Positions 187 to 12,484 of a stretch of 38,793 bases of DNA are shown piece after piece. The notes under the pieces are model-generated. The model was not told the DNA's origin and did no database searches. It saw nothing but the letters and a program-made list of their open reading frames with translations. The DNA is from an uncultured Lachnospiraceae bacterium (lineage in GTDB: Bacteria > Bacillota > Clostridia > Lachnospirales > Lachnospiraceae): positions 1 to 38,793 of the forward strand of contig CALWLK010000057.1 in NCBI GenBank assembly GCA_944381505.1. The letters run 5' to 3'. The translations under genes and the position numbers were made by a program. Positions within the stretch are counted from its first letter, which is position 1; every line of letters begins with the position of its first letter.

Positions 187-837
187 TTAGCCTACCATAC
201 TGAAATCAATATCTGCCGTTCTTGTGTAAGTTCCCTCAAATCCATAGAAAAACATTCCACCCGATACTTTGGAATATAAAACATTAACCGTATTTTCTCC
301 GTCATACGAAAACATCACTAATTCACCAAACTCATTTGAAGCAATATAGTTCCCGTCTTCCGATCTTATGATCGTTCCCGAGAATTCGGCCATACCTCTG
401 CCGTCACTTGTCGCACCGCTCATATTTATATAATCCATTCCGCTGTCACTGTATACCCCTATGTCTATAACAGCATCCAAATAACCGTCATGGCACTCAA
501 ACGAACCGTAAATAGGCTTATTTTCAGAAGTGGATTTATTTACTTCTTGCGTTTGAACTGTTCCGTCTTGCACCCAAGCCCCGTCAGAGTTTACATTGTA
601 CCCGTCAGGCGTAGTTGTGTCCGAGAGCATATATCCCTTATCATTAAAATAATAGCATTCGGCTGTTCCGTCATTATTTCCGTCAAGCCATTGCCAAGTA
701 TTAACAGGATATGTCCCGTCATCATTCTGCCACCACCATCCTGTTGCATCACTCTGCCATTGTCCCGCCATGACGGCTGTTATAGATGAAAAGCTCAGCA
801 GCATCGTAAAAGCCAACCCGAAAATCTTCTTTTTCAT
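187..837 (-). CDS. Secreted protein with glucan/choline-binding-like repeat and duplicated C-terminal domain
   Basis: This is an exported protein of about 216 residues. The ATG start is followed by KKK, a hydrophobic stretch and a likely cleavage after AVMA; a TTG three codons upstream is a possible alternative because the AGGAAAGG motif fits it better. Tryptophan- and tyrosine-rich sequence just after the signal (GWWWQNDDG, CYYFNDKGYM) resembles cell-wall/glucan-binding repeats. The last ~100 residues resemble the end of the 589-residue protein in the same operon: both have a Y-S-D-[ST]-G-x-D-Y-I motif and end with GGM-[FY]-F-x-GFEGTY. It is the last and only ribbon-free gene of the operon, 30 bases after the YbjQ-like gene. 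A role at the cell surface is inferred; no enzyme motif is visible. Confidence 0.75.
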   Translation of the reverse strand: MKKKIFGLAFTMLLSFSSITAVMAGQWQSDATGWWWQNDDGTYPVNTWQWLDGNNDGTAECYYFNDKGYMLSDTTTPDGYNVNSDGAWVQDGTVQTQEVNKSTSENKPIYGSFECHDGYLDAVIDIGVYSDSGMDYINMSGATSDGRGMAEFSGTIIRSEDGNYIASNEFGELVMFSYDGENTVNVLYSKVSGGMFFYGFEGTYTRTADIDFSMVG

Positions 838-876
838 ATCTTCCAATTTCCTTTCCTGAAAATTTTACTGTCATAT

Positions 877-1482
877 TTACTTTATCTTTACTGCGGTTCC
901 GTAAGCAAGCACTTCCATTGCTCTCCCCTCCGCGATAAGGGTCGATACAAGCCGCACCCCCATTACCGCATCGGCCCCAAGGGATTTTGCTTCATTTTTC
1001 ATTTTTTCAAGCGCCGTGTCTCTTGCGGCCGAAGTCACCTCTGTATAGTCCTTGATTTCCGCTCCTTCCAAATTTTTCAAGTCCTCACTACAATCCTCAC
1101 CGATATTTTTCAGTATTACAATGTTACCTTTAACCATCCCTAATATTTCAGATTTCTTATCACCAAATGTTTCAAGAGTAGACAGAATAATTTCTTTCGG
1201 CTGTTGTATTTGAGGCTGCACAGAAACTGTTTCAGTCTGCTGAGCAGTCTCGGTTTCCGCAGGCAGACGCTCCCCACAGTTGGGACAAAAAATAGTTCCT
1301 TCAGATACCCGAGTCCCGCAATTATTACAAAACGCGAATTTATGAGTCTGTTGTAGTCTTTGCTGTGTGGCAGTTGTTTCCTTCTGCTGTCCGGCTACAG
1401 CCTCCACAGGTAACCTTACTCCGCAATTAGGACAAAATATACTTTCTCCGGACACCTGAGTCCCACAATTATTACAAAACAT
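877..1482 (-). CDS. Double zinc-ribbon protein with YbjQ-like (UPF0145) domain
   Basis: The 201-residue protein has two CxxC-x10-CxxC zinc ribbons (Cys 3, 6, 17, 20 and Cys 52, 55, 66, 69), separated by a Gln/Thr-rich linker. Residues ~95-200 match the YbjQ/UPF0145 family: the segments ARDTALEKMKNEA, LGADAV and AYGTAV are typical of it. This family forms oligomeric rings in known structures, and its function is unsettled. No signal peptide or membrane segment is seen, so the protein is probably cytoplasmic. It is the fifth gene of the zinc-ribbon operon, 46 bases after the TM2 gene. The ribbons are near-duplicates of each other, which points to recent internal duplication. Confidence 0.88.
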   Translation of the reverse strand: MFCNNCGTQVSGESIFCPNCGVRLPVEAVAGQQKETTATQQRLQQTHKFAFCNNCGTRVSEGTIFCPNCGERLPAETETAQQTETVSVQPQIQQPKEIILSTLETFGDKKSEILGMVKGNIVILKNIGEDCSEDLKNLEGAEIKDYTEVTSAARDTALEKMKNEAKSLGADAVMGVRLVSTLIAEGRAMEVLAYGTAVKIK

Positions 1483-1528
1483 TATTTCGCTCCTTAAATA
1501 ATCTCAATGTTCACAGTCAGCTGATTTT

Positions 1529-1909
1529 CTATACAAGAGGCACGCCATGTCCGTCGACACGTATTTTTCCGGCCAAAATCATAATTCCCTCTACAAATCC
1601 CCAAATAGCCGAAATAACAGGCCCTATAAGAACTATAATACCGACAGTCCCCAGCAGAAGCTGTATGATTGCCTTTCCTTTATACCCCATATAAAAATTA
1701 TGTATCCCCAAGCCTCCTAAAAATATTCCGAGGAGTCCTGCCGCCATTTTGGACTTTCCCTCTCTCTCAGGCTCCGCCGGTGTACTACTAACGGTAACCT
1801 CATTGCTTGGCGAGGTGTTTGTTCCTCCGGTTAAATTCTTCCCACAGAGCGGGCAAAACTTGCTTCCGTCAGGGATCTCTTTACCGCAATTACTACAAAA
1901 CATGTTCAT
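1529..1909 (-). CDS. Zinc-ribbon TM2-domain membrane protein
   Basis: A 126-residue protein has one N-terminal zinc ribbon (Cys 5, 8, 19, 22), a Ser/Thr-rich linker, and a TM2 domain at ~53-112. The TM2 domain shows the usual paired helices: KSKMAAGLLGIFLGGLGIHNFYMGY, in which GIHNFY-x-G is the family signature, then a second hydrophobic helix ending in an EGIMIL segment. The ribbon should face the cytoplasm. TM2 proteins are small membrane proteins with no settled bacterial function. The gene lies 48 bases after the 589-residue gene and 46 before the YbjQ-like gene, in the same operon. Confidence 0.88.
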   Translation of the reverse strand: MNMFCSNCGKEIPDGSKFCPLCGKNLTGGTNTSPSNEVTVSSTPAEPEREGKSKMAAGLLGIFLGGLGIHNFYMGYKGKAIIQLLLGTVGIIVLIGPVISAIWGFVEGIMILAGKIRVDGHGVPLV

Positions 1910-1957
1910 TTCCTCCTACTATTTCAGATTTATAAAATTATCCTATTTCTTTTATTT

Positions 1958-3727
1958 CTAATAATCCTGTGTCTTCACATATGTGCCTTCGAAGCCCGGG
2001 AAATACATCCCCCCGGTATTGACGGCATTCGTAATTTCAATACTGTCAATACCATTGTAAATAAAGTCCACCTCATTTCCATATTCATCCATCGCTGTAT
2101 AACTATTTCCATCAGATGATACAATAACCCCGTCAAAGCTGCCGGCGCTGTCTGCATACGAACCATTGAGCGCAATATAATCTGCGCCGGTATCGCTGTA
2201 ATAGCCGACTTCAAGTTCAATTCCTCCGGCATCCATATCCATATAATACTTTCCATAAACCCAATCGGCTTTAAATCCGTTTGTACTATCGGACATCCCG
2301 TCTCTTATTGCCGCAAGGAATTCTATATTTTTCTTCTCGTAGTCATTGAAAACAGAACTCTCCATCGGAGCAAATTCATCTGCCGAATACATCGGTGTGT
2401 ACCATGATTTCGAAGAAAAATACTCATTCAAGTCCACTGTCTCAAAGGCTCTGCCATGTCTGGCATATATTTCGTTGATACCGAGCCTTATTGTAGCCTT
2501 ATCCATTCCTGCCACATCGGAATCTGTGAGATAGCGTGTATTGCTGTCGGGGAAGATATATTCACCATCATTTGAGGTTGTCTCAGGCTCATTTACCACA
2601 GGAGTTGCGTCGCTTTCATTGTAAATATATTCTCCATTGAGGTTAATATACATCGTTTCCATGCCTTCCGCAGGATGCGTTACGACTGAAAATCCACCAT
2701 CTGTAAGAGTAATTGTCATTGTCCCGTAATCGTTGTCATCAAAACATATATAGACGCCATTTCCCAAAGCATTTAAATAGCCGCCTCCGACACCTTGCTG
2801 ATGTCCTCCATAACCCATAGATTCTATATCTATCCGTTGACCTGTTTCATCTTCGCTTACAATCGCTGTATTATAAACAGAGCTTCCATCATCATAAATA
2901 TATGTTCCGTTTTTTAATTCATTATCCTGATTTTCATATGATGATTCCACAGTTTCAGTGATGCTATTGTCATATGCGGAGCTGTAGTTATCCTCCTCAT
3001 AGTCGTTATATATCTCATAATCCTCATAATCAGTTCCGCCTCCTATGCCCGAAAGCATAGCAAGGCTGAATGCAGTCACAGCAGCAAAAAATGATATTCC
3101 TGTCGCAATGCTGACGGCCAAGGTCACTATGACAGCTCTTCCCACAGAGGGATCAGCTTTGAAGTCTCCGGCTGCAGCCTTTTTTTCGACATGCCTGTAA
3201 TAGACCTTGTTAAATTTAAGCGAGAACAAAATCTGCTTTACCGTATATATTATCCCGAGGATGAGCGCTATCAAAAAAGCTGCAAATATTATGATGGCCC
3301 CTACCGCTAAGTTACCCGCCTGAAACAGTCCCAGGCAGCCTAAAGAGCCTATGAGAATGACTGCATACATGGCTATGAAAAATTTTCCTGTATCTTTCAT
3401 CCAGTCTTTCCAAACATTGCGGTAAGCGGCATGAATCAACCCCAAGAAGAAGGAGGCAAGGTTGATCCTTGATCTTCCCTCTTTTTTTATCCGCTCAAAT
3501 TGTTTGAGGTAGTAAGCGATGTTTTTCGATATTATCTGCCGCAATGACGCATCCGAGCTTTCAGGCTCCGCCGGTTGCGGGGTCGGCTCCGAGGGAGCCT
3601 CCGCTTTCACAGCAGCGCTTACATTTTCCGTCTGCTCAAAGGGCGTCCCGCAATTAGTGCAGAATTTAGACGATGCGGGAACCTTCGCACCACACTGCAT
3701 ACAAAACTTATATTCCTGTTCTTCCAT
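1958..3727 (-). CDS. Zinc-ribbon membrane protein with extracellular YARHG domain
   Basis: The 589-residue protein has one N-terminal zinc ribbon (Cys 9, 12, 23, 26), a Pro/Glu-rich linker, and hydrophobic segments at ~115-133, 141-168 and 198-227. An Asp/Glu/Tyr-rich acidic stretch (231-270) follows, then a large C-terminal part. Residues ~399-473 hold a YARHG domain (NEIYARHG, then SWYTP). The final 100 residues (~488-587) match the C-terminal domain of the secreted protein at the end of the operon. An odd number of membrane segments would place the ribbon inside and the YARHG and C-terminal domains outside, so it may sense or bind something at the wall. It is the third operon gene, 21 bases after its upstream neighbour. 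Confidence 0.85.
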   Translation of the reverse strand: MEEQEYKFCMQCGAKVPASSKFCTNCGTPFEQTENVSAAVKAEAPSEPTPQPAEPESSDASLRQIISKNIAYYLKQFERIKKEGRSRINLASFFLGLIHAAYRNVWKDWMKDTGKFFIAMYAVILIGSLGCLGLFQAGNLAVGAIIIFAAFLIALILGIIYTVKQILFSLKFNKVYYRHVEKKAAAGDFKADPSVGRAVIVTLAVSIATGISFFAAVTAFSLAMLSGIGGGTDYEDYEIYNDYEEDNYSSAYDNSITETVESSYENQDNELKNGTYIYDDGSSVYNTAIVSEDETGQRIDIESMGYGGHQQGVGGGYLNALGNGVYICFDDNDYGTMTITLTDGGFSVVTHPAEGMETMYINLNGEYIYNESDATPVVNEPETTSNDGEYIFPDSNTRYLTDSDVAGMDKATIRLGINEIYARHGRAFETVDLNEYFSSKSWYTPMYSADEFAPMESSVFNDYEKKNIEFLAAIRDGMSDSTNGFKADWVYGKYYMDMDAGGIELEVGYYSDTGADYIALNGSYADSAGSFDGVIVSSDGNSYTAMDEYGNEVDFIYNGIDSIEITNAVNTGGMYFPGFEGTYVKTQDY

Positions 3728-3748
3728 TTCTTACAATCTCCTTTTTAT

Positions 3749-4420
3749 TTAATATGAAAAGATGGCGTCCCATAAAGCCAGCCCCATATCTGTGTAAAGC
3801 TTATCCAAATTTCCTGTATAGACATAATCCAATAAATAATATATGACCGTATCATCATAGTGAACCTCTCCGTCTATACTGATCGAATCGACTTCAAACC
3901 AGTCGTCCTGAGAATAAAAGGCAACTTCCCAATGTGTGTTCATAGCAGTATCGTCGCCGCTGAAATATACATTGTGGGCCCCGTCAACTATCGAGCTGTC
4001 GGACGAAGACCACTTGCAGTTATCAAACCTGTTTTCGAAGGCTTCTCCAACTGTTATTGTCGAACTGTATTGGGTCAGACAGCCGTTTTTGACTCCCTCT
4101 ACAGAAAAGTCCCAGAGGCTTGCCACGATAAAAAAGCCTACCAGCAAGACCGCTCCTATTGCTACGAGCCAAGGCCACATTTTCTTTTTCTCGCCTGCCT
4201 GCAAAGATTGGGCGGACGCCATTGAAGCCTGAGCACTTACAGTTTGGTCTATGGGATTCCCGCACTTTTCACAAAATTTTGCCCCTGCTGCATATTCGGC
4301 TCCACAGATATGACAGAATAGCTTTGGCGGTGGAGCTTCCTGCAAAGGAGCACCGCATTTCTCGCAAAATCTCGCATTGTCCGCCAATTCGGCGCCACAG
4401 TTGCCACACCACTTACTCAT
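3749..4420 (-). CDS. Double zinc-ribbon single-pass membrane protein
   Basis: The 223-residue protein begins with two zinc ribbons (Cys 5, 8, 19, 22 and Cys 36, 39, 50, 53). A Ser/Ala/Gln linker, a basic KKK stop and one transmembrane helix (~82-104) follow, then an outside domain of ~115 residues. That domain has no motif I recognise; it is rich in Ser, Asp and aromatic residues. The layout matches the Firmicutes pattern of a cytoplasmic ribbon on a membrane-anchored extracellular domain. It is the second operon gene, with 21-base gaps on both sides. Confidence 0.82.
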   Translation of the reverse strand: MSKWCGNCGAELADNARFCEKCGAPLQEAPPPKLFCHICGAEYAAGAKFCEKCGNPIDQTVSAQASMASAQSLQAGEKKKMWPWLVAIGAVLLVGFFIVASLWDFSVEGVKNGCLTQYSSTITVGEAFENRFDNCKWSSSDSSIVDGAHNVYFSGDDTAMNTHWEVAFYSQDDWFEVDSISIDGEVHYDDTVIYYLLDYVYTGNLDKLYTDMGLALWDAIFSY

Positions 4421-4441
4421 ATAGAAATCCCCCCTTTTCTT

Positions 4442-5065
4442 TTAGCTCAACTTCATCCCGCAGTTATCACAGAACTTATCTGCTGCCCCGCACTCTCTGC
4501 CGCAATTAGGACAAAAGACCTTCTTTGCAATTATGTCCTCAAGCCTTACCCCGCATTTCTCGCAAAACTTTGCATTGATCTTCAATGGCGCTCCACATTG
4601 GGGGCAAGTAAGATCTGAATAGCTCGCGGCTTCCTCTGCCATTTTTTTCTCTTCATCAATCCTTTCCTCAGCTTTTTTCAATTTTTCATTGAAATAATCC
4701 GCAATTACCATACCGATAAAATAGACAATATAACCCACCTGCGGCTTAAGGGGATTTAATCCCATCGTAAAATCATCTATATAAGGAAGAAGAATTATAA
4801 ATCCGATAAGTGAAAGTATGTTTATCCCATAGCTGATATACTTCCATTTGGTATTTACAAAAGAGATCGCTATCATCAATGCAGGCAATATAAGAAGCAA
4901 TACCCTTGACATTTCGCCCTCTATTCCAAAAGCAATATCTGCAAATGAGAAGGAATATCCCCCAAATTCTCCAAGATCCACTTTCATTGCAGGCAAAAAG
5001 AAGCTTACCAACAAAACCACACAGCAGATCCTATATAAGATTTTCCATAAGCTAACTTTTTCCAT
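4442..5065 (-). CDS. Multi-pass membrane protein with C-terminal double zinc ribbon
   Basis: The 207-residue protein has the reverse order of its neighbours. Four membrane segments come first (~8-26, 52-70, 76-95, 110-125), then a charged helical linker (126-150), then two zinc ribbons (Cys 154, 157, 168, 171 and Cys 185, 188, 199, 202). It is the first gene of the operon. A good ribosome binding site (GGAAGAGG, 7 bases before ATG) supports the start. The promoter probably lies in or beside the 32-bp palindrome at 5114-5145. No family-specific function is visible. Confidence 0.82.
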   Translation of the reverse strand: MEKVSLWKILYRICCVVLLVSFFLPAMKVDLGEFGGYSFSFADIAFGIEGEMSRVLLLILPALMIAISFVNTKWKYISYGINILSLIGFIILLPYIDDFTMGLNPLKPQVGYIVYFIGMVIADYFNEKLKKAEERIDEEKKMAEEAASYSDLTCPQCGAPLKINAKFCEKCGVRLEDIIAKKVFCPNCGRECGAADKFCDNCGMKLS

Positions 5066-5845: not shown

Positions 5846-6004
5846 TTCTCGAATTCCTTTGCTTTGTAATAATGAAATTTATTTAACCCCAGTGTATCAA
5901 TTTGCCCCGACAAAAGATGTCATTGTAGAGATTTCACTAAAAAACTTATTAATATTTGCAACGTAGCTGGAAACATATTATTACACTTGTTAATAAATTA
6001 AATA

Positions 6005-6041
6005 GATGGAAGAAGCTGCTTACTAAACAACATCCTCCATC
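6005..6041 (-). terminator. Possible terminator of the AAA+ cassette
   Basis: About 60 bases past the AAA+ stop, the minus strand forms an 11-bp stem (GATGGAGGATG / CTTCTTCCATC) with one mismatch and one G-T pair, followed by TATTTAATTTATT. The stem is moderate and the T-run broken, so this is tentative. Otherwise I see nothing in 5846-6101. Confidence 0.4.
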
Positions 6042-6101
6042 CAAATTTAATTATTTTTCTTAGCAACAATCTAAGAACATACTGTTTTTGAAAAATCAAC
6101 T

Positions 6102-7226
6102 CTACAGTATCATTCCAGTTTCATCAGATGCAAAAATAAAGTCTTCTACTTTAATCGTTGACAACACTGAAATTCCCGGATCGTCAATATTTACCACTCG
6201 TCTTGCATGATTCATAACCAAATCGTCATAAATATTTCTCACCAATCTACCGTTTGCAAAATTTTCATCCTTTGACGCTACCTTCTGTTCAAAATATAAA
6301 TGAATTTTCTTTTTCACTTCATTCTCTAATGTATAATCATTTTTCTCACACATAGAGGTCAGAATCTCATCCAATTCGTCAGGACTGTAATCATCAAATT
6401 CTATAAATGTATTAAATCGAGATTTCAATCCTGGATTAGATTCGAAAAACTTTTTCATGGGCTCCGTATATCCGGCAACAATTACAACCAGATCTTCTCT
6501 GTAGTCCTCTAAAGCCTTAGTTAATTCTGTCAAACATTCTCTACCATAAGAATCCGAATGGTCATTTTCTGTGATGCTATAAGCTTCATCAATAAACAAA
6601 ACTCCACCCTTAGCTCGTTCAATTACTTTTTTCACTTTAAGCGCTGTTTGTCCTTGGTATCCGGCAATCAAGTCAGTTCGTGAAACTTCTACAAAATGTC
6701 CCTTTGAAAGCAAACCGATACGCTTATAAATCCTACCTACAATACGAGCCACTGTTGTTTTTCCTGTTCCTGGGTTCCCAGTAAAAGCAAGATGTAATGT
6801 ATTTTTTACTAAATGTAGGTTTTTCTCACAACGCATTTTCTGAACTTTTTGATATGCGATCAAATCATTCACTCTACTTTTAACTTTTTCCAAACCTACA
6901 AGTGAATTCAATTCATCTAACAAATCTTGAAGTGATCTTGTATCATTATCAGTTTCCTCATTCAGATTACAGATTTCTTGTATAGTCGTGTAACCATAAA
7001 ACTCAATCAAGCTGGAATTAAGAGCTTTTGCTGCCCTTTTTGCCTCAACATTATAGTTGGAATTGCTAACAACCTCTGAAATTTTTCTAAGAAGTACAAT
7101 TGTAGCTTTTTTACTTTTGTCCTCTACAATCGCTATGGCCAACTTAAGTATTTCTCCACAATCATCTATGGTCGCATCTAACTTAGTTGAATTATTTATT
7201 AATATTTGTCCATACTTATCCATCAT
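6102..7226 (-). CDS. AAA+ ATPase of the CbbX/SpoVK/EccA type
   Basis: The 374-residue protein has a helical N-terminal part (~1-105) and one AAA+ module. Visible motifs are Walker A GNPGTGKT (150-157), a pore-type loop YQGQT (190-194), Walker B GVLFIDEAY (208-216), sensor 1 VIVAGYT (248-254), the arginine finger in NPGLKSRF (264-271) and sensor 2 in NGRLVRN (325-331). These are typical of the CbxX/CfqX group, which includes SpoVK, the Rubisco activase CbbX and type VII secretion EccA. Members remodel protein partners in an ATP-dependent way. Its start overlaps the stop of the coiled-coil gene by four bases (ATGA), so the two are translationally coupled. The expected substrate is one of the three cassette proteins. 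SpoVK itself is unlikely given the context. Confidence 0.9.
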   Translation of the reverse strand: MMDKYGQILINNSTKLDATIDDCGEILKLAIAIVEDKSKKATIVLLRKISEVVSNSNYNVEAKRAAKALNSSLIEFYGYTTIQEICNLNEETDNDTRSLQDLLDELNSLVGLEKVKSRVNDLIAYQKVQKMRCEKNLHLVKNTLHLAFTGNPGTGKTTVARIVGRIYKRIGLLSKGHFVEVSRTDLIAGYQGQTALKVKKVIERAKGGVLFIDEAYSITENDHSDSYGRECLTELTKALEDYREDLVVIVAGYTEPMKKFFESNPGLKSRFNTFIEFDDYSPDELDEILTSMCEKNDYTLENEVKKKIHLYFEQKVASKDENFANGRLVRNIYDDLVMNHARRVVNIDDPGISVLSTIKVEDFIFASDETGMIL

Positions 7227-8437
7227 AACATATTCACAAAAAGTAAAATCAGCTCAAAAATTGCAAGTCCTACTGCCCCTCCGGCTATCCAAGATACATA
7301 CTTAATTCTCTTTGCCAATGACTCAACCGCAATATTAGAATTCTGTATTGCATCTGCAATATTTTTGTCTACTTCGTCCTTGTTTTTTGAAATTATAGTG
7401 AGAAGCTCTTTACTTCTTTTTTTATCTTCAATAAGCTGAAATGTATGTTCTTCAACATCTTTCCATATACTATCAATGTCACTTAAATGATATAGACCAT
7501 CTAATTTATTCTTATACTCTTTCAGACTACTGATGTCATGCGTATTTGAATCTATGTCTTTGCGCATTTTATCATCAACCAACATCAATTCATTCAGTTT
7601 ATTCGTATGAACACCACAATTTTTTTCCACATTTTTTATACGAAGCTGATAGTCTTTAACCTGTTCCCAGATTTCATCAACTTTCATCAAATGGTTAAGT
7701 GCAGATATTTTTTCCCTAAAAGCTTCCAGCTTTACAATTAAATTTCTACTGGTTATTGCATATACTTCTGCATCTGCAACGCTTTTATACAAAGCATTAA
7801 TAGATTGTTTATTTTCATCACCTGTCGTAGTAAGTATATCCAATTCTTTTTGGTGTATTTGGATGTCTTCACTTACCTTATCAATACTTGTCTTGATAAT
7901 ATTTAAATAATCCCATATATTGTCAATATCTTGCAAATGAGTATATCCTTCGAGTTTTTCTTTAAAATCCTTTAAAATTGTAACAATTTTCGAGATATTC
8001 TCTACACTTTTCTCTATTTCAACTTGATGCACGTCTAATTTGCTTTGTTGTTCAACAAGTGTATCTTGGTGTTGCTTTAATGTTCCTTGTTGCACTCTAA
8101 CATCATTACTTGTTTTTTCTATAGCTTTAAGATTACTTACAATGCTCGTTATATAGTCTTTATCAAGCGCATCAAGCGCGTTATATATCTCTCGAAATTC
8201 TTTAATGATTTTGTTGCTTGATGTATTAAGAACGATAAAATTCTTTTGAATACTTTCCAGTCTATTATTCAACTCATTTCCTGTAACTTTATGATCACCC
8301 AGTCCAAAAAAGAATCCCTCAGTTTGAACTTTTTCTATCTGAAGATCACCTTCTTCTTTTTCGGAGAACTCTTTTAATCGTTCCTTTGCTAAATTAAAAT
8401 TATGTCTTTTAATTTCTATCTCATTCATAGTATACAC
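7223..8437 (-). CDS. Tail-anchored coiled-coil protein with three internal repeats
   Basis: The 404-residue protein is mostly predicted helix and coiled coil, with one C-terminal membrane helix (~381-403), so the bulk should face the cytoplasm. A GLGDHKVTG segment (~45-53) precedes a helical stretch. Three repeats share the pattern L-x-x-[FY]-[KR]-x-K-[LI], then HL, then [IV]-D-x-IW. They lie at ~155-175, 237-257 and 305-325. No enzymatic motif is seen, so a scaffold or sensor role is a guess. GTG at 8437 is used as the start; the ATG three codons later has better spacing from upstream AGG. The gene begins 2 bases after the 136-residue gene stops and overlaps the AAA+ start by four bases. Confidence 0.8.
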   Translation of the reverse strand: MYTMNEIEIKRHNFNLAKERLKEFSEKEEGDLQIEKVQTEGFFFGLGDHKVTGNELNNRLESIQKNFIVLNTSSNKIIKEFREIYNALDALDKDYITSIVSNLKAIEKTSNDVRVQQGTLKQHQDTLVEQQSKLDVHQVEIEKSVENISKIVTILKDFKEKLEGYTHLQDIDNIWDYLNIIKTSIDKVSEDIQIHQKELDILTTTGDENKQSINALYKSVADAEVYAITSRNLIVKLEAFREKISALNHLMKVDEIWEQVKDYQLRIKNVEKNCGVHTNKLNELMLVDDKMRKDIDSNTHDISSLKEYKNKLDGLYHLSDIDSIWKDVEEHTFQLIEDKKRSKELLTIISKNKDEVDKNIADAIQNSNIAVESLAKRIKYVSWIAGGAVGLAIFELILLFVNML

Positions 8438-8439
8438 GC

Positions 8440-8850
8440 CTAACTAAATAAATTATCTATTTCGTTTGAAATTGAATCAAACTCTTTCATAACCGAATCA
8501 TTTCCGTTATCAATGTCAAAATTTCCAGTCTCTTTTTTCCCATTAGTGATATTTATTTTGGAAAAGTCATCGACAAAATCCTCCATAATATTACTGTACG
8601 CATCTTTCATTATTTCTCCAGCGACAGTATGCCTTTCAAATACAGCTTGTGCTCTTTCACTCTTAGATTGATACATATCTTCAACAACGCTTGAATTTGA
8701 AAAAGCCTTCTCCTCTTGAAGACTGTATTCACAATTTTTTTTCATTGATTTAAATGCAGTAGTATCATCCTTTAGCTTCTCATACAGAAAATATATAATT
8801 CCCACAGCCAAGGCGGCCGTCGAAGTATAAATAAATATTTTTTTCATCAT
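8440..8850 (-). CDS. Small membrane-anchored protein sharing a C-terminal motif with the HNH-like protein
   Basis: The 136-residue protein has an N-terminal membrane helix (~4-23) and a charged, helical remainder. Residues ~71-97 (ERH at 72-74, then IM, AY, NIMEDFV and DFS) closely match residues ~506-532 of the 567-residue neighbour. The match continues loosely to both acidic C-termini. AAGGAG seven bases before ATG supports the start. It lies 11 bases after the 567-residue gene and 2 before the coiled-coil gene. The shared tail suggests that both proteins present the same docking element, perhaps to the AAA+ ATPase or the coiled-coil protein. It matches no named family I recognise. Confidence 0.78.
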   Translation of the reverse strand: MMKKIFIYTSTAALAVGIIYFLYEKLKDDTTAFKSMKKNCEYSLQEEKAFSNSSVVEDMYQSKSERAQAVFERHTVAGEIMKDAYSNIMEDFVDDFSKINITNGKKETGNFDIDNGNDSVMKEFDSISNEIDNLFS

Positions 8851-8861
8851 CTTTCTTCTCC

Positions 8862-10565
8862 TTAAACTAAACCTCCAATTAAATCATTTAAATCATCACT
8901 TTCCCTATCTATCTCTTTGTTGATTCTTACATCTTTTTCATCAATTATAAGCGATGTATTTGCATTTTCAGAAAACTCGCTAACAAAGTCTTCCATGATA
9001 TTTTCATATGCCCCGTTCATTATAGAAGCTGCACGCTTATGTCTTTCCAAAATATCAGCTTGACTTTTCACTTTATCCCTCTCAAGTAAATAGTCGCTTA
9101 CAATTTGAATTTGATGTTGTTTGGCGATAACTTGGTTCCCTTTTTCTATTACAGCTTCTTGCGCATCCGCTTTTTGTTTTTTTACAATCAATTTATCAAT
9201 AAGATTTATGATAACGGCACCAACAAGTCCACTAACTAAACTCGCCAGGAACATACCTATTATATTTGCCAAAGAACCCAACAAAGGCAATTGTATCTGC
9301 ATTCCAGGCACCGATAATAAAATCTTCTCAAACAGTTCGCCTAGGAAAATTGCACCACCCGAAAACAAACTGGCTGTAATTATCTTACCTACTTGTGCAA
9401 CTTTAATTGCAAAGGGTTTATTTATATTCCCCTTATCGGTAAGATATCTTACTGCATCTATCCAAGATGAAACTCCCTGCTTGATAAGGCTAGCCAGCCT
9501 TTTAAATGTACTTACAATCGGCCCGAAAATTTCAGTCACTACGGTTCCAACAGCAGAAGTAACTCCTGTATGTAAAATATTGTTTATTTTAGCAAAAAAC
9601 GATTTAATTGCCTCCTTCATTTCTTCTAGGAATTTTTTAAATGATTTCGCCTGACTCTTTAAAAATCTTACAAAACCATTCATAACTTCCTTAAGTAATG
9701 AAAATAATGCTGTTATTGCCATTTGCTTCAAAGCATCTTTTCCAGCTTTTTTCGTAGTCTCCTTAGCCACCCCTCTCACAATATCTTTATTGATTGCCTT
9801 TCTAGCTTCTTTATCGGCCTTTTTCATAAACTCATTATCTGCATCTAGTTTATCCTGTAAACGCTTGTTATTCTTCTCTTTCGCCTTTTGTTTTTCAACC
9901 TCAGACATATCTGATTCATCAATCTTTTTATTTGCTCGTTCAGTTTGCGCTCTAAGATCTTTTTCCCTTTGTTCTCTACTACTGAGATAGTCATCAACGC
10001 TTTTTTCCTTTTTGCTCTTATTTAAAGACTCATTTGTAGCTTTAAGGTTTTCATCTTTATTAGCAAGATCCCCTGTATTTATTCCCGCTTGCCTCCTACG
10101 TTGATTTTCATACAATTCTTTTCTGGAAACAACATGATCTAAATTTGCTTTATCATTTTGACTAAGTTTTTTTCCTGTATATTCATCTTTCAAATTGCCA
10201 GATTGTTGTTTTTCTTTCATGGCTTTGTTGGCCTTTTTGTATTTTGGGTCTTGCATTACCTTTTTTCCAGCTTCTTCATATGTTTCACCTTGATGCTCTC
10301 TCTCATATTTCTGATTTAAAGTTTCATTGGTCATATCTAAACCAATTTGCTTTCCGAATTGTTCCCAAACTTCATCCAGTATCACCTTTCCCAAAGCGTC
10401 CGGATTCCCGATTTTTTCTTTTTCTTCTTTCAAAAAATCAAAATCCGAGAATTCTTCTTCTAATTGACTTTGAAGTTTTTCCTCCAGTTCATCAAAATCA
10501 AATGATTCCGTCAACTCTTCATTATAATTTTCTTTCTTATTTAAAATAGCATTTTCCGTTGCCAT
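8862..10565 (-). CDS. Membrane protein with HNH/HNN-like motif
   Basis: The 567-residue protein has an acidic N-terminus, then at ~127-188 a pattern resembling HNH nucleases: YTGKKL, NLDHVVS (Asp143-His144), then ENLKATNESLNKSK with Asn173, Asn178 and Asn182. The zinc-binding cysteines found in many HNH enzymes are absent. A long Lys/Glu-rich helical region (~190-275) follows, then amphipathic and hydrophobic segments, with likely membrane helices at ~388-412 and ~427-456. The C-terminal ~60 residues hold the ERH...IMEDFV motif shared with the 136-residue neighbour. It is the first cassette gene, with AGAGGG ten bases before ATG, and starts 50 bases after the WYL gene ends. Nuclease activity is inferred from the motif only. 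Confidence 0.78.
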   Translation of the reverse strand: MATENAILNKKENYNEELTESFDFDELEEKLQSQLEEEFSDFDFLKEEKEKIGNPDALGKVILDEVWEQFGKQIGLDMTNETLNQKYEREHQGETYEEAGKKVMQDPKYKKANKAMKEKQQSGNLKDEYTGKKLSQNDKANLDHVVSRKELYENQRRRQAGINTGDLANKDENLKATNESLNKSKKEKSVDDYLSSREQREKDLRAQTERANKKIDESDMSEVEKQKAKEKNNKRLQDKLDADNEFMKKADKEARKAINKDIVRGVAKETTKKAGKDALKQMAITALFSLLKEVMNGFVRFLKSQAKSFKKFLEEMKEAIKSFFAKINNILHTGVTSAVGTVVTEIFGPIVSTFKRLASLIKQGVSSWIDAVRYLTDKGNINKPFAIKVAQVGKIITASLFSGGAIFLGELFEKILLSVPGMQIQLPLLGSLANIIGMFLASLVSGLVGAVIINLIDKLIVKKQKADAQEAVIEKGNQVIAKQHQIQIVSDYLLERDKVKSQADILERHKRAASIMNGAYENIMEDFVSEFSENANTSLIIDEKDVRINKEIDRESDDLNDLIGGLV

Positions 10566-10615
10566 AACATATATTCCCTCTATCTACAGTAAGCCCTTTT
10601 ATACTTTCCCTCTCC

Positions 10616-11557
10616 CTAATCGTTTATAAAGCCAACATATTCCCCCTGACTCCTCATCCACATCTCCAACCCCAATTCTCCGTACACCTCCACAGTCACG
10701 TCCCAGCTTCCGTCCTCTCGCCTGGTGGCCTTTGCCGTAGGCAGTCTGTCCAGCACCGCGTCTATATCAGGTCCTTTATATACAAAGCTCTTTTTCATGA
10801 GCTTACCGGTAAACATAAAAGGGATCCTTTTTCTGAATTCTCCCTCCTCAAACCTGTCCTTATAAGGAATATGAAAATGTTTTCCCGTGTCCTCAAAGCC
10901 CTCTATTCTGTCCACTCTGTAGACCGTGGGATAACCCGTATGCTTTATGTCCGCATCTCCCACATATGCAATCAGATAAAAATAATACTCCGAGCACATT
11001 ATTCCCAGAGGCTTTACCAAGGCAGCTGTGATCTCTCCGTTGGTCTTTTTGTATTTGAGCTTTAGGATTTGGCAGTTGTGTATACAGTTTCCCAGCTTCC
11101 AAATCACATCAGCCAAGTCCTTATGATGTCTCGGCTCCACATAATTAAACAGCTCGTTCCCTATAAGCTCCCTCATTATATTCCTGTCAGAATAGGGGAG
11201 ACACCTTTTGAGGAGTTTTTCGCATATCGCTGTCGCCTCCTTTTTTGACAGTGAGCGGCTGTCGAGGATAGTCTTTATCACTGCAAACATCTCGGCATTT
11301 CCGAGAAAATCCCCCTCGCTCTTTGTTAACTTAAATCCTCTTTCTTTTCTGTCATACCTTACGTCGGATATTCCTCCGCCTGAGGCGGCTCTGTCGGAGA
11401 GATACTCTCTTATCTCATCAATATCTCTCTGTATAGACCTCGGGTTTACGCCAAATTCGTCTGCCGCTTTTACCTTATTTACCACATCACCGGCAATCAG
11501 CCTGTCATATATCCTAAGTATCCTTCCCGCCTTATCTCTTCCCTCATACTCTCCCAT
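10616..11557 (-). CDS. WYL-domain transcriptional regulator
   Basis: The 313-residue protein has an N-terminal winged HTH (~10-55, with the pattern AADEFGVNPRSIQRDIDEIREYL) and a WYL domain at ~150-222. The core reads YYFYLIAY in place of WYLIAY, followed by YRVDRIEGF. A C-terminal extension (~235-313) is also typical. WYL proteins sense ligands, often nucleic acid or nucleotides, and several control phage-defence loci (BrxR and CapW are named examples). It sits 50 bases upstream of the AAA+ cassette on the same strand, but its base composition is less AT-rich than the cassette. It could be a resident gene or the cassette's own regulator. Confidence 0.9.
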   Translation of the reverse strand: MGEYEGRDKAGRILRIYDRLIAGDVVNKVKAADEFGVNPRSIQRDIDEIREYLSDRAASGGGISDVRYDRKERGFKLTKSEGDFLGNAEMFAVIKTILDSRSLSKKEATAICEKLLKRCLPYSDRNIMRELIGNELFNYVEPRHHKDLADVIWKLGNCIHNCQILKLKYKKTNGEITAALVKPLGIMCSEYYFYLIAYVGDADIKHTGYPTVYRVDRIEGFEDTGKHFHIPYKDRFEEGEFRKRIPFMFTGKLMKKSFVYKGPDIDAVLDRLPTAKATRREDGSWDVTVEVYGELGLEMWMRSQGEYVGFIND

Positions 11558-11860: not shown

Positions 11861-12484
11861 ATGTTTATAGATATGCATATGCACGAGAAAACTTTCTCCT
11901 CGGACAGTTTTCTCTCCCTTGACGAGATAGTGCGCGAGGCCAAAAAGAAGGGCCTTGACGCCGTATGTATAACGGATCACGACAGCATGGGCCTGAGAGA
12001 TGTGGCCGCAGCCTACACCGAGAGGACAGGTTATCCTGTTTTCGTCGGCATAGAGTTCTACTCCCTGCAGGGAGATATCCTTGCCTTCGGCATAGACCGG
12101 TATCCCAAGGAGAGGATAAGCGCTCAGGACTTTATAGATATGGTGAACGAGCAGGGTGGCATCACCATAAGCGCCCATCCCTTCCGAAATAACCGCAGGG
12201 GCCTTGAGGGGCATTTGGATATAGTCAAGGGCATCACAGCCATAGAGGTGTTAAACGGAAGCACGCTTCCCGACGCGACAAAGCTCGCCGAGGATTATTC
12301 CAAAAAGCTCTGCCTTCCCGCCACAGGCTCAAGCGATTGCCACGTCACCGAGAAGGTCGGTGTCTACGCCACCTACTTTCCCGACGAGATACATTCTATA
12401 AGAGATCTTGTGGAGGCGGTAAGATCGGGAAGGTGTAAGCCCGCCTACTACAAAGACGGCACTTACAAGATTTATGAATTCTGA
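11861..12484 (+). CDS. PHP-domain metal-dependent phosphoesterase
   Basis: The 207-residue protein is a compact PHP domain. Metal ligands are visible in order: MHMH (His6, His8), TDHD (Asp39, His40), Glu65, AHPFR (His106) and SSDCH (Asp159, His161). Related single-domain proteins hydrolyse phosphate esters such as nucleoside bisphosphates or histidinol phosphate; the substrate here cannot be told. At 207 residues it is shorter than the YciV/RNase AM group (about 280-290), lacking their insert. It is transcribed alone, with a consensus promoter and a strong terminator. Confidence 0.9.
   Translation: MFIDMHMHEKTFSSDSFLSLDEIVREAKKKGLDAVCITDHDSMGLRDVAAAYTERTGYPVFVGIEFYSLQGDILAFGIDRYPKERISAQDFIDMVNEQGGITISAHPFRNNRRGLEGHLDIVKGITAIEVLNGSTLPDATKLAEDYSKKLCLPATGSSDCHVTEKVGVYATYFPDEIHSIRDLVEAVRSGRCKPAYYKDGTYKIYEF

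Follow-up and report, generated by a model that had tools for sequence, protein, structure and literature searches.

The window analysed here, a stretch of 38,793 nucleotides from an uncultured Lachnospiraceae bacterium, contains a WYL gene followed by four packed, AT-rich genes, as described in the initial annotation, all five open reading frames lying on the minus strand. The first gene of the cassette (10616..11557) encodes a WYL regulator, whose PF13280 domain scores 28.7 bits for a Pfam cut-off of 21.8. It is followed by the genes for an HNH-membrane protein of 567 amino acids (8862..10565), a small membrane protein of 136 amino acids, SM (8440..8850), a tail-anchored coiled-coil protein, CC (7223..8437), and an AAA+ ATPase (6102..7226). 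The WYL and HNH genes are separated by 50 bp, HNH and SM by 11 bp and SM and CC by 2 bp, while CC and AAA+ overlap by 4 bp. The tight spacing first reported (11 and 2 bp, overlap of 4) therefore holds for the genes as annotated, but the residue that matches the ATG at 8428 is the start in most CC homologues; the true CC start is probably 8428, and the SM–CC gap then becomes 11 bp. The GC content of the four cassette genes is about 30–36% and that of the WYL gene about 44%, with flanks mostly at 46–55% beyond 12 kb (falling to 42% around 36 kb) and at 41–47% ahead of 4.5 kb. Hydropathy places membrane segments in HNH, SM and CC and none in the AAA+ protein, in agreement with the count of three membrane proteins proposed earlier. 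A homologous WYL gene lies immediately upstream of the cassette at loci L019, L020 and L085, and none adjoins it at L021, L030, L074, L078 and L084, so that the WYL gene is a cassette member in the window but an optional one overall (four of nine loci).

The HNH-membrane protein is composed of a conserved N-terminal region, an HNH core (residues about 106–200; 9966..10250, minus strand), a coil, a membrane segment and a C-terminal tail (8865..9095, minus strand). The core carries D143 H144 ... N173 ... N182. In an alignment of 23 HNH homologues the sole invariant columns are H144, N173 and N182, and D143, A168, N169, L174, P420 and G430 are conserved at 90% or more; the motif described at first as nuclease-like is thus the H-N-N catalytic pattern of HNH enzymes, present in all 23 relatives. 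The strong hydrophobic membrane segment predicted at residues 426–462 is in the middle of the protein, and hydropathy showed no hydrophobic segment at the N-terminus. Curated Pfam profiles, HNH included, gave no family for the window protein, and among its 23 relatives the matches were weak: GmrSD_C in two (best 0.00097), GH-E in one (0.0013) and the transporter membrane family BPD_transp_1 in seven (best 0.0002). The AlphaFold model has a mean pLDDT of 53.2 (11-row alignment) and is too weak for interpretation; as regards the beta-beta-alpha metal fold of HNH nucleases, it places strands at 140–144 and 174–178, with block pLDDT values of 47–85 over residues 101–180. Foldseek with this poor model returned nothing at E 0.001 or better among the best 50 of 59 matches (E up to 10); the best of those listed (E 0.52) is not a nuclease, and TasH (E 7.0) was rejected as a fold relative, being at chance level. 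Solved (PDB) sequences gave no match to the protein at E up to 1, and a secretin alone (0.29) when the HNH alignment was used.

Comparison of the HNH proteins between loci revealed an uneven pattern of conservation. The window and L021 proteins are 75% identical over residues 1–60 and 20% identical in the core, and those of L021 and L074 share 21% of the core and 78% and 81% of the flanks. The nuclease core thus appears, from these alignments, to be exchanged inside a conserved chassis, an unexpected feature. Low core identity could alternatively stem from fast evolution, and in the most distant pair, window and L078 (N-terminus 40%, core 22%, membrane part 26%), the mosaic is not visible.

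SM has one N-terminal transmembrane segment according to hydropathy, followed by a tail that is a second copy of the HNH protein tail, with its RHxxA motif and terminal acidic-leucine motif. In the window the two tails align with a local score of 102, a value reached by none of 1000 shuffles (33.1 +/- 6.1), and a homology search also found this similarity (39% identity, 1.8e-5). The duplication is present in 7 of 7 loci tested, with 0 of 1000 shuffles in each, and we conclude from these comparisons that the tail is duplicated between the HNH protein and SM, a second unexpected feature. Neither the core exchange nor the tail duplication figured in the initial annotation. SM is a separate gene in nine of ten CC records; L074, which has no separate SM, has a merged tail, and there the type of HNH tail and the type of CC change together. 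Docking of the HNH tail on CC may be suggested by this joint change and is kept as a lead only, because plain linkage can co-exchange neighbouring segments.

CC ends in a single C-terminal transmembrane segment (hydropathy), varies from 244 to 442 amino acids across the compared loci and carries recurring HLxDIDxIW-like segments, identified by eye. Its AlphaFold model (mean pLDDT 49.2, 6-row alignment) is too weak for interpretation. In PADLOC the window CC matches JetC, PbeC and LmuB (2e-4 to 0.09), the L030 CC matches LmuB (9.7e-6) and the L021 CC matches JetC (7.6e-13); these hits were judged to reflect coiled-coil similarity, and identity with the proteins concerned was set aside.

The AAA+ gene directly follows CC in all ten CC records found. 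The protein matches Pfam AAA (PF00004, 1.1e-19) and AAA_lid_6 (4.5e-15), its nearest solved chains are CbbX (3syk, 4.3e-68) and EccA1 (9lur, 7.1e-55), and the original description of a CbbX-type ATPase is borne out. The top NCBIfam matches, spore_V_K, CbbX and EccA, all score below their equivalog cut-offs (272.5 bits for 422.95, 244.3 for 459.25 and 223.3 for 466.65, respectively). Walker A, Walker B, the YQGQT pore loop, VAGYT and NPGLKSRF are intact in the nine AAA+ proteins examined. By its AAA core, lid and the GY in sensor 1, traits taken from excerpts of PMC10659427, the predicted protein belongs to the SpoVK/CbbX/EccA clade; those of its members that have been characterised act as dedicated chaperones and have no peptidase partner (PMC10659427, excerpts). 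The window AAA+ also has the pore loop in common with these chaperones, but is set apart from them by a distinct N-terminal region (about 100 amino acids) and by the constant association of its gene with that for an HNH membrane protein. Matches to IetA (4.3e-9) and DolB (3.4e-8) in PADLOC, and to PHROG 4339 of unknown function (2.6e-36), were taken as general AAA+ relatedness.

The order HNH–SM–CC–AAA is found in the window and at L019, L020, L021, L030, L078, L084 and L085, and at L074 with the merged tail. It is conserved in other genera, in another family, on two Lactococcus plasmids and in two viral contigs; the co-occurrence that the initial annotation proposed to look for is therefore real, and recurrence of the order in such distant hosts makes the linkage more than chance. 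On the Lactococcus plasmid pUC073A the four genes are LLUC073_14710 to LLUC073_14725. The distribution is patchy: CC occurs in 4 of 392 genomes of the order, the window's own included, the cassette is absent from the same-genus genome G117, and near-universal presence at a fixed place in a clade was not found. A scan of genome contigs for homologues yielded a single relative, L003. Searches of 50,697 phage records with the window HNH, the Lactococcus CC and the L074 core found no homologue, nor did a plasmid search with the L074 core; viral-contig scans with the window HNH, the window CC and the Lactococcus HNH returned nothing, and the L021 HNH found just the two cassette-bearing contigs already known. 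CBASS and AbiLi are located near the L030 cassette and type I restriction-modification genes near that of L078. Proximity to known defence loci, anticipated at the outset, was thus observed in two of nine contexts but not in the other seven, where no defence gene could be placed, a raw, uncontrolled count.

The full gene set, not recognised as a named system at first, matches none of the known systems compared here as a whole, but the HNH protein is distantly represented in PADLOC by component B of PDC-M40, a guilt-by-embedding candidate (6.5e-19; best stretch residues 202–496, outside the HNH core). PDCs are predictions, with validation pending for most in the core set (PMC12988326, excerpts). 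No PDC-M40 model is hit by the window SM, CC or AAA+ protein, and a scan of ten window proteins (E up to 1) turned up none of the system's other models. The HNH proteins of sister operons match PDC-M40B better, for example at 6.4e-35; six matches of a sister HNH protein to solved sequences were discarded as chance level. About 85 amino acids at the C-terminus of the sister HNH proteins are shared with BnzB-type proteins found in the sister loci, and the six BnzB-type proteins scanned all match BnzB at 1e-118 or better. Several of these Bunzi/PDC-M09A operons have an adjoining WYL gene and include Cys-cluster and Gly-rich partners, whereas the window cassette has neither partner and contains SM, CC and AAA+ instead; CC is not homologous to the Gly-rich sister protein (hhalign probability 3%), and BnzB was not matched among the ten window proteins (PADLOC). 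Restriction or anti-phage genes are annotated in five of eight annotated sister contexts. In E. coli, a close relative of the sister HNH gene covering at least 80% of its length is present in 370 of 5,426 complete genomes; of the 15 rows listed, 12 name it a cobalamin adenosyltransferase, so that a wrong name conceals what are likely defence genes.

Zorya type II combines the ZorA/ZorB motor with the HNH effector ZorE. It resembles the cassette by analogy only, as a membrane complex with an HNH nuclease, and differs in that the cassette nuclease itself carries a membrane segment and the cassette ATPase is CbbX-like; ZorA, ZorB and ZorE models were not among the PADLOC matches of the ten window proteins. 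CoCoNuTs (coiled-coil nuclease tandems) likewise combine coiled coils with a nuclease, and their extended forms add SpoVK-like proteins (PMC11090510, excerpts), but they are McrBC systems; no McrB or VWA family is over its Pfam cut-off in the window cassette, and neither "HNH" nor "tail-anchored" occurs in the text of PMC11090510. The available parts of PMC10952713, PMC10659427, PMC11090510, PMC13092281, PMC12988326, PMC11811056, PMC11514479 and PMC12409345 do not describe the window gene set. In the open-licence PMC literature we found no paper on PDC-M40 and none combining CbbX, HNH, membrane and anti-phage; the PDC-defining preprint (cited in PMC12988326) lies outside this coverage and may describe the set.

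On sequence grounds we regard the cassette as a probable mobile immune system, directed at phages or other invading elements and built around an HNH effector that is tethered to the membrane, can be interchanged and is under the control of a CbbX-type chaperone. The defence function initially read from the gene layout is in this sense supported, as a putative one, by the conserved order, the H-N-N pattern and the defence loci near two of nine cassettes. The mobile immune reading draws on the four-gene order with AAA+ after CC in every record, the invariant catalytic pattern and the PDC-M40B match. It draws further on the BnzB-type C-terminus of the sister proteins, the defence neighbours at L030, L078 and in sister contexts, carriage on plasmids and viral contigs, serine recombinases and patchy distribution, as well as on the core exchange, the tail duplication and the chaperone precedent of the AAA+ clade (PMC10659427, excerpts). 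Counted against it are the seven contexts without a placed defence gene, the lack of a curated HNH profile match, the BPD_transp_1 matches, the poor AlphaFold model without a useful fold match, the fast-evolution alternative for the core, the invisible mosaic between window and L078, and the negative phage records. We infer the defence activity, its trigger and the target of the AAA+ protein. HNH, SM and CC would form a membrane complex in which the nuclease would be held off at rest; once released, it would cut the DNA of the invader at the membrane, or else act on DNA generally with arrest of the infected cell, and WYL, where present, would set expression. A more specific and tentative proposal is that the Rubisco-activase-type AAA+ acts as the arming switch of the membrane-tethered nuclease by pulling on the tail duplicated on the effector and on the small membrane subunit, with the nuclease core exchanged as a cartridge, which would be a previously unrecognised design.

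An addiction or stabilisation module, with HNH as a toxin restrained by SM and CC, AAA+ keeping the arrangement active and loss of the element killing the cell, would account for carriage on plasmids and viral contigs and for the intact nuclease pattern, and the SM copy of the HNH tail fits an inhibitor competing for a partner. We find it unlikely, since the L020 cassette lies on a contig of 2.3 Mb and its identified neighbours include neither plasmid nor phage genes, four genes with an ATPase are heavy for such a module, and the HNH protein has relatives among both candidate and known defence families. A role in secretion or interbacterial competition, where an EccA/CbbX-like chaperone would feed an HNH DNase toxin with an exchangeable core to an export path, is less plausible still. 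EccA1 is the best solved AAA+ relative after the CbbX entries, core exchange recalls polymorphic toxins and bacteriocin and immunity genes lie near the L084 cassette, but neither an EssC/FtsK-type ATPase nor WXG100 figures in the Pfam matches listed for the scanned window genes or in the 25 of 67 families listed for 61 neighbours, and the mid-protein position of the HNH membrane segment and the negative hydropathy result at the N-terminus also argue against it. Control of a mobile element's own transfer or integration would fit the large serine recombinases directly upstream of the cassette at L021/L076 and L074 and the tyrosine recombinase about 8.5 kb from that of L078; the four Resolvase members listed for the 61 neighbours are accounted for by L074 and L076, so none is evident beside the window, L019, L020, L030 and L085 cassettes, which makes this explanation improbable. 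Lactococcus does not sporulate, and a SpoVK-related module for housekeeping or sporulation, suggested by spore_V_K as top NCBIfam match, is very hard to reconcile with the cassette on Lactococcus plasmids, the score far under the cut-off, the rarity of CC in the order and the absence from G117.

Should the mobile immune reading hold, immunity would be regulated by a chaperone from the CbbX/SpoVK clade, with a membrane chassis that stays fixed and a nuclease that can be replaced on it, an arrangement that would point to selection by counter-defence.

All five genes placed by the initial annotation were recovered, on the minus strand. In transcription order they encode a WYL regulator (313 aa), an HNH-membrane protein (567 aa), a small single-TM protein (SM, 136 aa), a tail-anchored coiled-coil protein (CC, positions 7223-8437; 404 aa, or 401 from the ATG favoured by relatives) and a CbbX/SpoVK-type AAA+ ATPase (374 aa). 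The genes are separated by 50, 11 and 2 bases and then overlap by 4 bases, and the last four have a GC content of ~30-36%, versus mostly 46-55% from 12 kb onward. In G117, a genome of the same genus, nothing matches the HNH protein; it keeps the far-side genes (three window proteins, 76, 77 and 95% identical) and the gene adjoining WYL (11861-12484, read as PHP-like, 84% identical), these being separated by ~7.5 kb of other genes, and its genes past the PHP-like gene, where the cassette lies in the window, match nothing in the window. The cassette site is therefore variable. Zinc-ribbon and YARHG genes lie in a row beside the cassette (187-5065), and zinc-ribbon proteins resembling the window's also occur close to the HNH genes of L024 and L025.

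The HNH protein was matched in 10 of 200 genomes of the family, the PADLOC candidate defence model PDC-M40B in 5 of 246 of the order, an 11-row HNH profile in 17 of 397 of the family and 6 of 341 of the class, and CC in 4 of 392 of the order, with the window's genome included in every count and some overlap between samples. Sorted by gene content, the 17 family genomes comprise four with the window-type cassette, called type I here (G000, G005, G038, G127), one with a truncated HNH gene (G035), five with a sister operon (G012, G162, G192, G195, G432), and seven in which only the C-terminal part of the profile is matched, in short proteins or proteins of the type of BnzB, a component of the Bunzi defence system. 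In ten CC records, one per organism (window, L019, L020, L021, L030, L074, L085, L003 and the Lactococcus plasmid copies L078 and L084), CC is always followed by AAA+, SM is a separate gene in nine, HNH precedes in 9/9 (L003 starts too near for judgement) and WYL adjoins in 4/9 (window, L019, L020, L085; L003 outside the count). The HNH protein of a viral contig (L075/L076) is 100% identical to that of L021. Remnant or truncated HNH genes occur in two genomes, at L024:7899-8552 and, near a WYL gene, in L027 near 778-944.

The ATPase carries PF00004 and AAA_lid_6 (Pfam), and its closest solved proteins are CbbX (3syk, 4.3e-68; 3zuh) and EccA1 (9lur, 7.1e-55); its score does not reach the equivalog cut-off for SpoVK, CbbX or EccA. 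The WYL protein passes its Pfam cut-off, and no Pfam family was above cut-off for HNH, SM or CC. SM and CC had no convincing family match in Pfam, NCBIfam, PADLOC or PHROGs. The HNH protein matches PDC-M40B (6.5e-19, best stretch residues 202-496); its family is already represented among PADLOC candidates. CC has recurring segments around HLxDIDxIW, the number of which appears to vary by locus (proteins of 244 to 442 aa).

An alignment of 23 HNH homologues including the window's, from Clostridia, Lactococcus and Gram-negative plasmids (truncated or split L024, L027, L031, L066 and L077 set aside; L078 and L084 mutually close), has exactly three invariant columns, H144, N173 and N182, which are the positions that catalytic residues occupy in HNH nucleases, for example in the Cas9 HNH pattern. 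D143, A168, N169, L174, P420 and G430 are at least 90% conserved. Curated profiles detect this family poorly: the 23 members gave weak matches to GmrSD_C (2), GH-E (1) and BPD_transp_1 (7), and the window's member matched none of them.

In three pairs of loci the HNH core (residues ~106-200) diverges far more than its surroundings. Identities over residues 1-60, linker, core and membrane part are 78, 68, 21 and 81% between L021 and L074 (AAA+ 84%), 65, 57, 21 and 79% between L074 and L085 (AAA+ 73%), and 75, 36, 20 and 41% between the window and L021 (AAA+ 79%). One core type is common to the window, L019 and L020 (72-79%), a second to L021, L030 and L078 (46-59%), with L085 joining more loosely (30-41%), and a third is that of L074 (21-30% to the others); H, N and N are kept in all. 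From these alignments the core appears to have been exchanged between loci with alike flanking parts. Counting against exchange, the window and L078 lack the contrast (N-terminus 40, core 22, membrane part 26%), and very fast core evolution could also produce it.

A second feature is a C-terminal tail duplicated between HNH and SM. The two tails of one locus are alike in 7/7 loci tested (alignment scores of 65-120 against shuffle means of 29-37, with 0/1000 shuffles reaching the score at each locus), while HNH segment 206-290, used as control, scores 24-51 against the same SM tails. RHxxA is found in 6/7 HNH tails (L030 lacks it) and 7/7 SM tails, and both tails terminate in a short acidic-leucine motif. 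L074 (HNH gene 5862-7625) has no separate SM gene, and therefore one tail can suffice. Its HNH tail is 43% identical to the window's and 36% to L021's, and its membrane part 81% to L021 and 42% to the window; the tail is thus nearer the SM/window kind, and this gene is an apparent merger or deletion between duplicated tails.

The sister operon combines an HNH homologue with a Gly-rich protein matching candidate model PDC-M09A and a YkgJ-type protein bearing CxxCxxCC, often together with WYL. BnzB-type proteins lie in the same kind of operon and have a C-terminal ~85 residues common to sister HNH proteins; all six that were scanned, a set excluding L056, L057 and L067, hit BnzB with E-values no higher than 1e-118. 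Operon partners and shared C-terminus thus link Bunzi to an HNH family. The BnzB-type operons of L058, L059, L061, L062, L063 and L068 have a PDC-M09A-like Gly-rich protein and mostly YkgJ, which L059 lacks. PMC10952713 lists a TerB domain for Bunzi. On a Vibrio plasmid, WYL is followed by one run of TerB, Gly-rich, HNH and YkgJ genes; HNH relatives occur in 45 of 72,556 plasmid records (tblastn). Out of 5,426 complete genomes of E. coli, 377 carry a close form of the sister HNH gene (examples: L104:7743-9314, L105:12001-13572, L106, L107), always at chromosomal sites, the match covering at least 80% of the gene in 370. The name cobalamin adenosyltransferase or similar, given in 12 of the 15 matches listed, does not fit the context of a WYL or HTH regulator and, in some, YkgJ. 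L060:5035-8163 contains a further HNH protein, shorter at 405 aa (PDC-M40B match 2e-10), beside two uncharacterised genes, possibly a third arrangement, in a genome that also carries the sister operon.

Of 93 ORFs in type I neighbourhoods, 61 were scanned with PADLOC (30 on two annotated plasmids and 2 others set aside), the results resting on 25 of 72 matching families, with placement followed up for 10/61. L030 has CBASS (oligonucleotide cyclase, E2, 4TM effector) ~3-6 kb and AbiLi ~6 kb from the cassette; L078 has type I R-M genes at ~3-8.5 kb with an IS element intervening. At L084 the neighbours are instead a bacteriocin and IS elements. One strong PDC-S05 match (another candidate model) was not assigned to a locus. 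Defence genes were thus placed in 2/9 type I contexts (L030, L078), an uncontrolled rate that backs the defence reading as support and not as a test. A terminase-like gene lies near L019 and serine recombinases near L021 and L074. Restriction or anti-phage annotation lies within the stretch in 5/8 annotated sister contexts (L079 AbaSI, L080 DUF262, L083 AbpA, L106 type I R-M, L107 a restriction endonuclease at the edge) and is absent within those of L081, L104 and L105. The three E. coli chromosome stretches in this set are closely related to one another. L064 adjoins RE_endonuc, methylase and helicase genes.

According to PMC10659427, members of this AAA+ clade are dedicated chaperones that act on a narrow range of targets and lack peptidase partners; CbbX is described there as seizing its target by the C-terminal tail. 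In all nine cassette AAA+ proteins examined, the pore loop and the ATPase motifs are intact. In the simplest model, the ATPase would act on the duplicated HNH/SM tail, switching a membrane HNH complex. The sequences themselves establish the component genes, their order, the tails and the contrast in the core, and beyond these the model is a prediction: such a complex would be off at rest, a trigger would lead to tail pulling, and the nuclease may then act on DNA. The initial annotation was right in considering these genes an unnamed set; we infer, as it did, that the cassette is probably defence-related.
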